Assembly (NCBI RefSeq): GCF_000213785.1
Contig: NC_015557.1
Span: 1,220,664 to 1,284,663, forward strand
From: Hydrogenobaculum sp. 3684
GTDB lineage: Bacteria > Aquificota > Aquificia > Aquificales > Aquificaceae
Length of the DNA: 64,000 nucleotides
Reading direction: 5' to 3'
Shown here: piece by piece, positions 2,568-30,780 of the stretch
Layout of the letters: each line of letters starts with the position of its first letter
How positions within the stretch are numbered: the first letter of the stretch is position 1
Notes under the pieces: generated by a model
Told to the model about the DNA's origin: nothing
Databases searched by the model: none
What the model saw: the letters and a program-made list of their open reading frames with translations, nothing else
Position numbers and translations under genes: made by a program

Positions 2568-3198
2568 ACTTGTCAATAATTTTGTGTCTCATAACAAAAT
2601 CTCCTGTTGAATATTTGTAAAACTTCATATGAGGACCCTTTTAATGCAGGAACTGGCTTACTCCACTTATTGTTCTTTAAAATATCTCTCTGGACAAGGA
2701 TATTTATTTCAAGAATCTCAGCAGATTGGAAATAGCCTCCTAAGTTTATCCTTGCTTTTTCAATCATGCTATTTATACTCTCTACGGGATTGGTAGTATA
2801 AATATGCTTTCTTAGATTTTCTGGATATTTCAAGAAGCATAAGTACCTTTCTTTGTTAGCTTGTATCCTTTTTATGAAGCTTGGATAAATAGACTTAAAT
2901 CTCTCACACAGTGCTCCAAACTTCTCTAAACCATCTTCAAAATCTAAGCTATTGTTCTTGATATTCTTTAACTCTTTCTTAAAGAACTGAGCATCTTGCT
3001 TACTCATCTGAGCTGTTACATTTCTCTGAAGATGTATGAAGCACAATTGATGGTCTGTATCTGGAAAAAATTTTTCAATGGCGTTAGCAATACCAGGGAA
3101 ATCATCGCTTACTATAATCATTACTCTTTTAACTCCTCTTTCTGTTAGGTCGTTGAAAACCTTTAGCCAATCTGCTCTGTTCTCGTTATTAAAGAAAG

Positions 3199-3280
3199 TA
3201 GAGTGCTTTAGCATATTTCCAATAAGTTTTTGCTTAAAAGACAACCTACTCACGAAGTAAGAAATGTCTATGACACACTA
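3199..3280 (-). repeat. MITE-like repeat, copy C (78 bp, diverged)
   Basis: 78 bp between two TA dinucleotides. Minus-strand ends GTGTGTCATAGACATTTCTTAC and the reverse complement of the other end, GAGTGCTTTAGCATATTTCC, form an imperfect inverted repeat similar to that of copies A and B, but the middle differs. It interrupts the transposase after LGF. The 78+2 bp insertion shifts the frame. Confidence 0.6.
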
Positions 3281-3389
3281 GAACCCAAGTATATCTTTGT
3301 TTCCTTGAAGGTCTATGCCAAGAGCAATATAAACAGCTGATTTCCTTACTTTACCCTTCTCTCTTATTTCACAATGATAGGCATCTATA

Positions 3390-3469
3390 TAGAGCGATGG
3401 TATCGCATTTCACTTCGTGGGTTTATTAAAGAACAGGCACTGGTAGTGTAAGAAATGCTACGCACGCTA
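3390..3469 (-). repeat. MITE-like repeat, copy A (76 bp)
   Basis: A 76 bp unit (3392-3467) flanked by TA on both sides. On the minus strand it starts GCGTGCGTAGCATTTCTTAC and ends AAATGCGATACCATCGCTC; the two ends pair imperfectly as terminal inverted repeats. Removing the unit plus one TA joins AIL to YIDAYH and restores the transposase. About 80 percent identical to copy B, same orientation. Confidence 0.8.
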
Positions 3470-3647
3470 GAGGATAGCTATGTCTGATGGTAATTCTCTG
3501 GTTTTGAAATCGTTTAACCTTTCAAGAAGATCTTGCTTAATTATCTTCATATGTTGTTTGGAGTAATCAAGACCCAAGCTATTTAAGGTAGACTCTATCT
3601 TACTTTCAGAGTATCCATTGGCCACAAGGCTCATTAGAAGATTTACG

Positions 3648-3727
3648 TAGAGCGATGGTATCGCATTTTACTTCAGGGGTTGACAAGGGAACAGGCACTG
3701 GTAGTGTAAGAAATGCTACGCACACTA
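3648..3727 (-). repeat. MITE-like repeat, copy B (76 bp)
   Basis: A 76 bp unit (3650-3725) flanked by TA, starting GTGTGCGTAGCATTTCTTAC on the minus strand and ending AAATGCGATACCATCGCTC. Removal with one TA joins RRVNED to YVNLLMSL in frame. Shares CACTACCAGTGCCTGTTC with copy A; the middle stretch next to it differs. Confidence 0.8.
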
Positions 3728-4098
3728 ATCTTCATTGACTCTTCTATAGGGCTCTGGTAAAGCTTTAGGCCTAAATCTTCCTTTTCTATCTCTCGGAACA
3801 TTTAAGTCTATCTTAAAAGATCCTGCGTTTAAAGTTCTTCCATAGTATCCGTTAGCTTTGTTGTCTTCTTTTTCGCTTAAGAATATCTTTCTTTCAGACT
3901 TCATAAGCGTTTCCATAACTAACTCAATGAACTCCTTTACACCAAGCTTCTGGTAGTTGTTGATGTCTTTACCAAGATAATCTTCTATTAGGCTTTCTAA
4001 AGAAGCTTTTAACTTCCCTATTCTTTCTTCTTCTTTCATAAACAAAACCTCCTAAAATTTGATAAAGTGTTTAAGTTTAAGACACATAAATATTTTAA

Positions 4099-24906: not shown

Positions 24907-26112
24907 ATGAGTGAATTTGCAAGCATTGAAGAAGCTATAGAGGATATAAGAAACGGTAAGATGCTTATAGTGGTGGATGATCCCTCCAGAGAAAATGAGG
25001 GAGACCTTGTTATGGCTGCTGAATTTGTAACGCCAGAGGCTATAAATTTCATGGCTACCCACGGAAGAGGTCTTATATGCCTTACCTTGGAGGGAAAAAG
25101 GTGTGATGAACTTGACCTTCCTCCTATGGTAAGCATGAACACAGATCCAAAAGGAACTGCTTTTTGTGTATCTATAGATGCTCACCCTAAACACGGTACT
25201 ACTACAGGTATATCGGCTTTTGATAGAGCTAAGACTATAAAACTTGCCATCAGTGAAGATGCTAAGCCATCAGATTTTATAAGACCAGGACACGTGTTTC
25301 CCATAAGAGCTAAGGAAGGTGGTGTTTTGGAAAGAGCTGGACATACAGAAGCTTCGGTAGACCTTGCAAAGCTTGCTGGCCTTTACCCAGCTGGAGTGAT
25401 ATGTGAGATTATGAATAAAGATGGTACAATGGCTAGATTGCCAGAACTTCAAACGTTTGCAAAGGCTTTTAATCTAAAAATTATTACTATTGAAGACCTT
25501 ATAAAATATAGGTTAAGGAAAGATAGGACTATAGAAAGAGTTGCAAGCGCTACTTTGCCTACCGCTTACGGGCTTTTTAAAGTGCACGCTTATAGAAATA
25601 AACTAAACGGTGAAGAGCAAGTGGCTCTTACAATGGGAGAATGGAAAGAAGATGAACCGGTTTTGGTAAGAGTGCACTCTGAATGTCTTACCGGCGATGT
25701 ATTTAGGTCTTTAAGATGCGATTGCAGGTCTCAACTTGAAGCTGCCCTTGAAGCTATAGCTAAAGAAGGCAAAGGTGTTTTGGTGTACTTAAAGGGTCAT
25801 GAGGGAAGAGGTATTGGTATAGCAAACAAAATAAAGGCTTACGCTTTACAAGAACAGGGTTATGATACGGTAGAAGCCAACGAAAAGATAGGATTTCCAG
25901 CGGATTTGAGAGAGTATGGAACAGGCGTTCAAATACTTCTTGATTTGGGTGTTAGAAAGATAAGACTCTTAACCAACAATCCGCGTAAGATAGTGGCTCT
26001 TAAAGGATACGGCTTAGAAGTGGTGGAGCGGGTACCTATAGCTATAAATCCCAACGAATGCAATAGAGTTTATCTTGATACTAAGAAAAATAAGCTGGGT
26101 CATATGTTGTGA
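24907..26112 (+). CDS. ribBA: 3,4-dihydroxy-2-butanone 4-phosphate synthase / GTP cyclohydrolase II
   Basis: 401 residues, two fused enzymes of riboflavin synthesis. Residues 1-200 are Rib[20 protein letters not shown] near 25, GRGLICL and the PGHVFPIRA and [12 protein letters not shown] motifs. Residues 205-401 are Rib[16 protein letters not shown], the zinc cysteines in [23 protein letters not shown] and LLTNNPRKI. Together they feed ribulose 5-phosphate and GTP into the pathway. I see no FMN riboswitch upstream; a TATATT box seven bases before the ATG suggests a near-leaderless transcript. It overlaps the next gene by four bases. Confidence 0.95.
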
Positions 26113-27063
26113 AGCATATTTTAAAAGCTGTTGCATTGTTTACTTTTGTAGCAGGTCTTAGTATATTCTATGTAATTTATAAGACTTTTAACAAATATAC
26201 AATAGACGTTTTGTACAGGTTGAACTTTAGATACGTGCTTTTGGCTCTTCTTTTGAGCTTCTTGTATCAAACTTTTGATGTACTTAGGCTTTTTACCCTT
26301 TCAAAAGCCCTAAACGTGAGATACTCTATTTTTTACGGTTATATCATGTCTTTTATAAATACCTTTGCAGCTACAGTCACACCTCTTCACATAGGCGGAG
26401 AGCTAGCTAGTGTTTATATGTTAAAAAGAAGAGGTGTACACCTTCACAAAACTATGAGTATAGTCACTATGAAAACGTTTTCTGGTATGTTTTTTTTTAT
26501 TTTGGCCTTTCCTATAACAGCTTTTTACCTTTATCAGAAGCCAAAGCTTGGTTTAGATGTTCTTAAGATTTTTCTAGTGTCCTTTGGTATCGGGCTTTTA
26601 ATATATATAGGTGCTAAACTTTTTTTTAAAAGCAACATACTTAGCGACAAAAGAAAGCTAAACATAAAATATACACTAAGAAAATACGTAGCAACGTTGA
26701 GGATTTTTTTAAGAATTAAGAAAAGTAGTGTTTTTTTTGGCGTTTTTTTACTCTGTTATGCTCTATATAACATTTTTGAGTATAGCCCCAGTGCTTATAA
26801 AAGCTTTTGGAAAGAATGTGGATGTTCTAACTAGCATGCTGAGGCAGTTGGGGCTTTTGTATGGTATATACATGAGCCCTACTCCAGGGGGAGCTGGTGT
26901 AGGAGAAATAGGAGGACTCGAAGTGTTTAAAGGTTATCTTAGTTTATATGAACTGGGGCTTTTTGTAATACTTTGGAGGTTTGTAAGCCAGTATTTTTCA
27001 GCTTTTATAGGCTGGATATTGTTTCAAATAATACTTATAAAGGACAATGAAAAACAAACTTAG
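26109..27063 (+). CDS. Flippase-like membrane protein (UPF0104/LPG synthase TM family), frameshifted
   Basis: Two frames join into one protein of about 317 residues. The first (26109-26834) carries hydrophobic helices including [19 protein letters not shown] and [13 protein letters not shown] near residue 90, the family's central motif. The second (to 27063) carries [14 protein letters not shown] and [15 protein letters not shown], the family's other conserved motif. The frame change falls at a T8 run at 26731-26738; with seven T the frames join. The family includes the membrane part of lysylphosphatidylglycerol synthase and hopanoid or glycolipid proteins. GTG start at 26109 inside the ribBA stop. 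Confidence 0.75.
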
Positions 27064-28514: not shown

Positions 28515-29558
28515 ATGGCAGTAAAAGAAATTTTGGAGAAAATCAAAACTCTTGATTTGAAAGATTTAAACATTCAAGAGCCTACCAGCATAGTTAAAGA
28601 TCTAAAAGTGTCTGGAGATATTATAAATTTAAAGTTGGCTGTACCTGAACCTGTTAAGGAGCAGGTGAAGAGTCGTTTTGAAAACCTTATCAAAGAAACA
28701 AATCAAAACCTAAAGCCAAACATAGAATTTGTAGAAGGAGAACCCAAGAAAAACCCCTTTGAACAGCCTGTTTTCAGCAAAAGAAGTATAAAGGGTGTGA
28801 AAAGGATTATTCCTGTAGCAAGCGGTAAAGGTGGTGTTGGTAAATCTACGGTGGCAACGAACTTGGCTATGGCTTTAAGCAAGTTAGGTAGAAGTGTTGG
28901 GCTTTTAGATGCAGATATTTATGGTCCATCTGTGCCTACTATGCTTGGTACCAAAGGGGCAAGGCTAACCGCAAACGTGTTTAACAAGATAATACCTATA
29001 GAAAAATATGGCGTAAAGATGATATCTATGGGATTTTTGCTTCCTTCCGAAGACACCCCTGTAATATGGAGAGGTCCCATATTGATGCAGGCGTTAAATC
29101 AATTCTTGTTTGATGTAGATTGGGGGCCGTTAGATTATCTTATACTTGATTTGCCTCCTGGAACTGGCGATGTCCAGCTTAGTCTTGCGCAAAATACAGC
29201 TATAGATGGCGCGGTGGTGGTCACTACACCTCAGGATGTGGCTTTGGTGGATGTTAAAAAGGCGGTGTCTATGTTTAGAGAAGTAAATATACCTATACTT
29301 GGGGTTGTTGAAAATATGGCTTATTTTGTATGTCCAGAAACTGGAAAAGAGTACCGCATATTTGGAGAAAGCAAAGTGCCCCAATTTGTGCAAACTTACA
29401 ATCTAAAGCTTTTAGGCTCGATACCTATAGAGCCAGATGTTACAAAGTATGCAGACGAAGGAATACCCATAGTAGAAGCCTCGCCGGAGTCTAGGACGGC
29501 CAAGGCTTTTATGGGAATAGCAAAAATAGTTGATTCTATATACCAAGGAGGTAAATAA
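28515..29558 (+). CDS. mrp: Mrp/ApbC/NBP35-type P-loop ATPase, Fe-S cluster carrier
   Basis: 347 residues. Residues 1-85 form a MIP18/DUF59-like front, and the ATPase domain starts at IIPVASGKGGVGKSTVATN (deviant Walker A), with DADIYGPSVPTMLG, LILDLPPGTGDVQLSL and VVENMAYFVCPETGKEYRIFG. The last contains one Cys rather than the usual CxxC pair; the second family cysteine is replaced (VCPETGKE where CPHCG-like is common). GGAGG lies seven bases before ATG. One base separates its stop from the NifS-like gene. Confidence 0.88.
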   Translation: MAVKEILEKIKTLDLKDLNIQEPTSIVKDLKVSGDIINLKLAVPEPVKEQVKSRFENLIKETNQNLKPNIEFVEGEPKKNPFEQPVFSKRSIKGVKRIIPVASGKGGVGKSTVATNLAMALSKLGRSVGLLDADIYGPSVPTMLGTKGARLTANVFNKIIPIEKYGVKMISMGFLLPSEDTPVIWRGPILMQALNQFLFDVDWGPLDYLILDLPPGTGDVQLSLAQNTAIDGAVVVTTPQDVALVDVKKAVSMFREVNIPILGVVENMAYFVCPETGKEYRIFGESKVPQFVQTYNLKLLGSIPIEPDVTKYADEGIPIVEASPESRTAKAFMGIAKIVDSIYQGGK

Positions 29559-29559
29559 C

Positions 29560-30780
29560 ATGTTTTTTAAGAAGGCAGGGGAAAAGACAGTTTACTTGGA
29601 TCATATAGCTACTACCCCGGTGGCTCAGGAAGTTTTAGAGGCAATGTTGCCTTATTTTAGAGAGATTTTTGGAAACCCAACATCTTTACACAGTTTTGGT
29701 CAGCAGGCTAAAAAAGCCATAAACCACGCAAGAGAGCAGATAGCTTATTTTATAAATGCTAAAAGCCCTGAAGAAATAGTTTTTACATCTGGTGGCATAG
29801 AGGCCAACAACTTAGCGATAAAAGGGATAGCCAAATCTTACGAAAAAAAGGGTAAACACATTATCACCACACCAATAGAACATCATTCTATACTTCATCC
29901 TTGCAAAAATTTAGAGAAAGAAGGTTTTGAAGTTACATATCTTGAGGTGGATAAGTATGGATTTGTAAACCCAGAGCAGCTAGAACAGGCTATAAGACCA
30001 GATACCATACTAATCTCTATAGGACATTCAAATAGAGAAATAGGCACCATTCAGGATATAAAAAATCTTGTTTCTATCGCAAAAGCTAAAAACCCTAAGG
30101 TTGTATTCCACAGCGATATAGCTCCTTCTTGCGGTCATACTCCTATTGATGTGCAAGAGCTTGGTATAGATGCAGCTTCTTTTACAGCACATCTTATGTA
30201 TGGACCAAAAGGCGTTGGTGCTCTTTGGACTAAGAAAGGCGTCAAGATAAAACCCCTCATAGAAGGCGGTGTTCAAGAGCGCGGTGTTAGAGCTGGTACT
30301 GAAAACGTGCCTGGTATAGTGGGCTTTGGAGCAGCTGCAGAGCTTGCTATGAAAGAGATGGACGATAGGGTAAAACGCCTTTCTTCCTACAGAGATAAAG
30401 TGAGAAAAGCCCTCGAAGAAAATCTTGACATGATAGAGTTTACAGGACATCCAACCCAAAGGCTTCCTCATCATCTATCTGTCATAGTTCATCTTATAGA
30501 AGGTGAGGCTATGCTTCTTAGATTGGATCTACAAGGTATAGAAACAGCTTCAGGTTCTGCCTGTGTATCTACAGCTTTAAAACAATCTCATGTTATAGCT
30601 GCCATAGGTATACCAAAAGAAGTATCAAACGGTTCTTTGGTGTTTAGCTTTGGAAGAGACAATACCGATGAAGATATAGATTATGTGGCAAGAGAGTTTC
30701 CCAAAGTCATCAAAAAGTTAAGGGAAATATCTCCTTTTGACAGGTCAAACTGGGATAACTACGTAAAATCTAAAAAATAA
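29560..30780 (+). CDS. Cysteine desulfurase-like protein lacking the PLP lysine
   Basis: 406 residues; ATG at 29560 is chosen for its AGGAGG site. The fold is clearly NifS/IscS: YLDHIATTPVAQEV, FGNPTSLHSFG, EHHSILHPC, YGPKGVGALW, GGVQERGVRAGTENVP and ASGSACVS with the persulfide cysteine. But the lysine that binds PLP (IscS Lys206, SGHK) is leucine here (TAHLMYGPKG). Nearby PLP contacts also differ: SGATE is SGGIE and the DxxQ glutamine is proline (HSDIAPSCGH). The aspartate, the PLP-stacking histidine and the cysteine remain. It is probably not a normal desulfurase; it may bind, carry or transfer sulfane sulfur, or scaffold cluster loading with the adjacent Mrp. Follows mrp by one base. Confidence 0.85.
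   Translation: MFFKKAGEKTVYLDHIATTPVAQEVLEAMLPYFREIFGNPTSLHSFGQQAKKAINHAREQIAYFINAKSPEEIVFTSGGIEANNLAIKGIAKSYEKKGKHIITTPIEHHSILHPCKNLEKEGFEVTYLEVDKYGFVNPEQLEQAIRPDTILISIGHSNREIGTIQDIKNLVSIAKAKNPKVVFHSDIAPSCGHTPIDVQELGIDAASFTAHLMYGPKGVGALWTKKGVKIKPLIEGGVQERGVRAGTENVPGIVGFGAAAELAMKEMDDRVKRLSSYRDKVRKALEENLDMIEFTGHPTQRLPHHLSVIVHLIEGEAMLLRLDLQGIETASGSACVSTALKQSHVIAAIGIPKEVSNGSLVFSFGRDNTDEDIDYVAREFPKVIKKLREISPFDRSNWDNYVKSKK

Follow-up and report, generated by a model that had tools for sequence, protein, structure and literature searches.

What a protein of the NifS/IscS family does once it has lost its catalytic lysine is the question raised by this locus. A cysteine desulfurase is commonly regarded as the indispensable start of ISC-type Fe-S cluster assembly, but the NifS-like protein of the heat-loving Hydrogenobaculum (Aquificaceae) carries a leucine at the position of the lysine that forms the Schiff base with PLP. 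We followed this protein from its gene and active site through its relatives, its gene neighborhood, and the desulfurase content of the genomes to its most probable partner.

The nifS-like gene is intact and directly follows mrp

Positions are those of the window, i.e., the whole stretch of 64,000 nucleotides that was analyzed.

28515-29558, plus strand: Mrp/ApbC/NBP35-type Fe-S carrier ATPase, co-directional with the nifS-like gene
29545-29551, plus strand: Shine-Dalgarno sequence AAGGAGG, within the 3' end of mrp
29560-30780, plus strand: NifS/IscS-like protein of 406 aa that lacks the PLP lysine, proposed partner of IscU

The reading frame begins with ATG one base past the mrp stop codon and is intact over its 406 codons, in agreement with a preliminary description of this DNA that had named a full-length gene with a strong ribosome site in an operon with mrp. 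The Pfam family Aminotran_5 matches the full protein with 284.6 bits. The best NCBIfam model is TIGR03402 (NifS), which also matches over the full length, and its 487.5 bits do not reach the equivalog cut-off of 530.75 bits. Elsewhere in the window, two overlapping open reading frames at 26109-27063 represent one membrane protein that is intact (>300 aa) in a close relative (locus L004); as the two frames part at a run of T, the cause is a frameshift or a sequencing error.

The reaction center is lost, whereas the persulfide loop is kept

Alignment with active NifS sequences revealed the exchanges A16I, T80I, N159R, Q189P, S209T, K212L, and R361V, while H108, D186, H211, and C335 are retained. 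The main positions are as follows, with the PDB entries in which the respective residue of the Aquifex aeolicus orthologue was reverted:

29605-29607, plus strand: Ile16, position of the Ala in DHAATT (reverted to Ala in 9wer and 9wep)
29797-29799, plus strand: Ile80, position of the Thr in SGATE, here SGGIE (reverted in 9wew)
30034-30036, plus strand: Arg159, position of the conserved PLP-contacting Asn (reverted in 9wfe)
30124-30126, plus strand: Pro189, position of the Gln in DxxQ (reverted in 9wf8)
30193-30195, plus strand: Leu212, codon CTT, Schiff-base lysine position in TAHLMYGPKG (reverted to Lys in 9wfe)
30562-30564, plus strand: Cys335, kept persulfide-loop cysteine in SGSACVS (aligns with the same-loop Cys of Archaeoglobus fulgidus IscS)
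30640-30642, plus strand: Val361, position of the substrate carboxylate-binding Arg (reverted in 9wfb)

The preliminary description had already noted the exchanges at the Schiff-base lysine, at the Gln of DxxQ, and in SGATE, as well as the conservation of the SGSACVS loop, the His, and RAGTENVP, and all of this was borne out. To its three losses, A16I, N159R, S209T, and R361V have to be added. Position 361 we take to be that of the substrate-binding Arg and position 159 that of the PLP-contacting Asn, as in IscS, and the loss of these two residues adds weight to the view that the entire reaction center is gone. The Schiff-base lysine required of an active NifS/IscS desulfurase is therefore absent, as are the Asn, Gln, and Arg of its PLP and substrate pocket, whereas the persulfide cysteine loop SGSAC of these enzymes is present. 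Sequence comparison detected no nearby lysine beyond that of GPKG, which is also present in active enzymes. Judged by these residues, the protein should neither form a PLP Schiff base nor hold a cysteine substrate.

The altered protein is conserved and under purifying selection

All 45 Aquificaceae loci examined agree in the changed residues, with Leu at the lysine position, and throughout the 20 Hydrogenothermaceae loci Tyr replaces the lysine, Arg the Asn, and Val the Arg, with the Cys retained (the locus counts of both families include some genomes that were reached twice). Cys335 is thus invariant while the losses are fixed across two families. Within Aquificaceae, dN/dS of the nifS-like gene is 0.02-0.08, with some of the distances near saturation; these values reflect strong purifying selection, so the gene is not decaying. 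Together with the invariance in the 45 loci, they also argue against chance or sequence error as the cause of the changes. The lysine-to-leucine exchange, for which the preliminary description had suggested a comparison across Aquificales, is therefore clade-wide and not unique to this sequence, which would have spoken against a new role. The observation holds, and the altered protein is conserved and of functional significance. An apparent absence of the gene in a congener (G033) turned out to be an assembly gap, as the contig ends inside mrp.

Lysine-less relatives outside Aquificota occur in Chloroflexi (Gln at the lysine position), WOR-3 (Ser), and Margulisbacteria (Leu). When a tree was computed without the trait columns, every lysine-less sequence of the first sampling fell on one side of a single branch (support 100/95), and the bacterial lysine-less set remained a supported group (100/98) when A. 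fulgidus IscS was added. The best tree places A. fulgidus IscS outside this group, which requires two changes. However, a single origin of the lysine loss that includes A. fulgidus was not rejected (p-AU 0.23), and we therefore dropped the claim of an independent loss in A. fulgidus.

The gene neighborhood points to mrp in two families and to iscU across phyla

With short gaps, mrp adjoins the gene upstream in 42 of the 44 loci from Aquificaceae and in all 20 from Hydrogenothermaceae (62/64 in total), and the two loci without it are short contig pieces. The order in Hydrogenothermaceae is mrp, nifS-like, iscU, thiI-like, tusA, DUF1858, nfu, and aroE; in 12 of the 20 loci, iscU is the immediate neighbor of the nifS-like gene, and several others have a chloride-channel gene between the two. 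The lysine-less genes of Chloroflexi (two loci), WOR-3, and Margulisbacteria also adjoin iscU, and in these other phyla mrp is not a neighbor.

Hydrogenobaculum has its iscU (at 328 kb in its genome) more than 600 kb from the nifS-like gene on the circle and thus not adjacent. The order of this iscU block is iscU, a ThiI/MnmA-like PP-loop protein with an NFACT-R_2 domain, tusA, DUF1858, and nfu. The fusion of the ThiI/MnmA-like PP-loop protein to the NFACT-R_2 RNA-binding domain (positions 2709-3746 of locus L147, beside tusA in the iscU block) is an observation in its own right; this protein is probably a tRNA thiolase, and a separate ordinary MnmA is encoded in the Hydrogenobaculum genome.

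Hydrogenobaculum has IscU but no recognizable cysteine desulfurase

The Hydrogenobaculum genome is a single contig of 1.55 Mb that was scored 100% complete. Family searches recognized no canonical cysteine desulfurase (iscS/sufS) in it, as the Aminotran_5 matches comprise only the NifS-like protein, a glyoxylate-type aminotransferase (best NCBIfam match BhcA, below the cut-off), and a DegT-type protein. The separate normal iscS that the preliminary description had proposed to look for was thus not found, and neither was SufB. Many near-complete Aquificaceae genomes likewise have only the lysine-less NifS-type protein and one weaker Aminotran_5 match, the identity of which was sequence-checked in the Hydrogenobaculum genome only.

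Among 136 Aquificota genomes, the NifS-like protein (101 genomes, a few of which show only fragments or a paralogue) and IscU (98 genomes) are confined to the same two families at the thresholds used. SufB was found in 29 of the 136, all of them from the other three families, which have neither the NifS-like protein nor IscU. The distributions of NifS-like/IscU and of SufB are therefore mutually exclusive across the phylum. IscU is also encoded in all Chloroflexi, WOR-3, and Margulisbacteria genomes with the lysine-less protein. As four of these five non-Aquificota genomes also have lysine-bearing paralogues, the absence of a desulfurase is a feature of Aquificaceae and not of the whole lysine-less group.

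Some side aspects of these distributions deserve mention. In the three families with a SufB-type protein and with neither the NifS-like protein nor IscU (f3, f4, and f5; genomes G105-G135), nearly all genomes have a single Aminotran_5 match of about 90-130 bits, and these Aquificota may be without cysteine desulfurase, too. A lysine-bearing NifS is encoded beside fdhE and a GcvH-like gene in some Aquificaceae, including G001 (L134-L137, L140), and this position hints at a function in the maturation of formate dehydrogenase. The Aquificaceae loci L138, L139, L141, and L142 harbor a second NifS-like paralogue that lacks the lysine; its gene belongs to a conserved cluster that also encodes an aldehyde ferredoxin oxidoreductase, a homocitrate-synthase-like protein, a 4Fe-4S ferredoxin, and a ThiS-like protein, and a diverged copy is found at L123:2157-3350 (genome G030).

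An orthologue has been deposited together with IscU

The NifS-like protein is 79% identical to an A. aeolicus protein that constitutes chain A of PDB entry 9wfy and matches the protein from genome G001 with 100% identity. IscU forms chain D of the same entry and over the aligned region matches 2z7e, the A. aeolicus IscU carrying a [2Fe-2S] cluster (PMC13423590), save for an Asp-to-Ala change. Orthologue and IscU have thus been deposited within one entry. The A. aeolicus orthologue and the Hydrogenobaculum protein agree in their residues at every changed site and in the Cys loop, but genome G001 also has the lysine-bearing NifS beside fdhE/gcvH (L140), which Hydrogenobaculum does not have.

Further entries contain stepwise variants toward the active-type residues, beginning with R159N and L212K (9wfe), to which V361R (9wfb), P189Q (9wf8), I80T (9wew), I16A (9wer), and finally G155M, A188V, and T209S (9wep) were added. 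We infer that this series was an attempt to restore the enzyme. Our literature search found no paper on 9wfy and the variant entries, and no functional assay of the NifS-like protein was found in the literature searched.

The NifS-like protein as a partner of IscU

In our view, the protein is most likely a non-desulfurase partner of IscU, with Cys335 holding the nascent cluster and with sulfide supplying the sulfur. Its association with IscU is well supported, whereas the roles of Cys335 as a cluster ligand and of sulfide as the sulfur source are inferred. The protein would be a catalytically dead NifS/IscS descendant that was kept as a partner of the scaffold IscU and that retains the fold of IscS along with the loop around Cys335. 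Docked on IscU in the manner of IscS, it would insert Cys335 into the assembly site, as the fourth ligand or as a transient sulfur holder for the nascent [2Fe-2S] cluster, and IscU would then hand the cluster over to the carriers Nfu and Mrp and to proteins that use it, for example the ThiI/MnmA-like tRNA thiolase. The sulfur would derive not from cysteine but from free sulfide, which is plentiful in these habitats. The suggestion of the preliminary description that a shell conserved despite the selective loss of PLP chemistry has acquired a new role fits well with such a scaffold-type function. We give even chances to the wider claim that most Aquificaceae carry out ISC-type Fe-S assembly without any desulfurase, by IscU and the dead NifS as its essential partner, fed by sulfide and with no SUF back-up.

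A persulfide carrier, which the preliminary description had named as a possible role, is the alternative that fares best. In such a relay, TusA, a rhodanese, or a sulfur-oxidation protein would load Cys335, which would pass the sulfane sulfur on to IscU or the tRNA thiolase, in line with the invariant loop, with tusA in the iscU block of both Aquificaceae and Hydrogenothermaceae, and with the known binding of both TusA and IscU by IscS (PMC11302665). We nevertheless consider such a relay unlikely, as TusA normally receives its sulfur from IscS and as the A. fulgidus precedent is one of cluster ligation and not of sulfur supply.

It is improbable that the protein is a residual or different PLP enzyme that binds PLP non-covalently or via another lysine and acts on cysteine or another amine. 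The fold, H108, D186, and H211 are retained, and loss of the lysine alone would be compatible with non-covalent PLP; indeed, A. fulgidus IscS crystals have been described with PLP, which is also listed in the figure legend for 4EB5 (PMC9769115). However, the substrate Arg (V361), the PLP-contacting Asn (R159), and the Gln (P189) are lost as well, the GPKG lysine is the only one nearby and is common to active enzymes, and the nine reversions of the PDB series suggest that a single change was insufficient for activity.

The preliminary description had also proposed a scaffold for the adjacent Fe-S carrier, of which the scaffold-type role fits well but most likely not the partner. Loading of Mrp in place of IscU would account for the 62 of 64 loci with mrp directly upstream, but we regard it as very improbable, given that iscU and not mrp neighbors the lysine-less genes of other phyla and that 9wfy pairs the orthologue with IscU. 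The adjacency of iscU in Hydrogenothermaceae and in the other lysine-less lineages, together with 9wfy, makes IscU the likelier partner. Finally, a decaying pseudogene can practically be dismissed, since the loss of the active site is accompanied by an open frame in every copy, an invariant Cys loop, and a conserved gene order, and dN/dS far below 1 already contradicts it.

If most Aquificaceae indeed assemble their Fe-S clusters without a desulfurase, with the dead NifS as the essential partner, the scaffold role of IscS has been separated from its sulfur-supply role in bacteria. With IscU kept, the enzyme chemistry discarded, and the body preserved, IscS would appear as an assembly partner that is independent of sulfur release, sulfide-rich habitats would be tied to sulfide-fed Fe-S assembly outside methanogens, and many proteins annotated as cysteine desulfurases, these included, may not be enzymes.

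Comparison with known systems

The idea of a dead NifS as a partner is not new, as A. fulgidus IscS has been published (PMC7585200, PMC9769115) and a direct orthologue is in the PDB. New is the genome-wide picture, in which canonical desulfurase and SufB are missing, IscU is kept, and SufB is mutually exclusive with this pair across the phylum. With respect to TIGR03402 group I cysteine desulfurases, the protein shares the full-length match and the Cys loop, but the catalytic residues are missing. Methanosarcina acetivorans IscS1, likened here by description only, has been reported without the catalytic lysine and with an IscU1 encoded in its gene cluster (PMC7585200); unlike Hydrogenobaculum, M. 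acetivorans also has an active IscS2 and SufBC.

A published precedent is A. fulgidus IscS, in which Asp (D199) replaces the lysine, which is without desulfurase activity, and whose Cys321 ligates the [2Fe-2S] cluster on IscU (PMC7585200, PMC9769115). The IscS(D199)-IscU complex (4EB5, 4EB7, 4HVK) shares with the Hydrogenobaculum protein the lost lysine and the kept Cys, with Cys335 aligning with the cysteine of the Cys321 loop, and IscU is encoded in the Hydrogenobaculum genome. The two proteins are 44% identical and differ in that A. fulgidus IscS has Asp and not Leu and has kept the Asn and SGATE; PDB entry 4R5F of A. fulgidus IscS carries Lys at the lysine position. Assembly from sulfide has precedents, too: H2S feeds IscU-dependent Fe-S assembly in iscS-deletion Escherichia coli (PMC13015791), and in Methanococcus maripaludis sulfide serves as a sulfur source of Fe-S clusters, according to a work cited in PMC7585200. 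A [4Fe-4S]-dependent tRNA thiolase can take sulfide in vitro (PMC10067955), in keeping with the presence of a ThiI-like gene in the iscU block.
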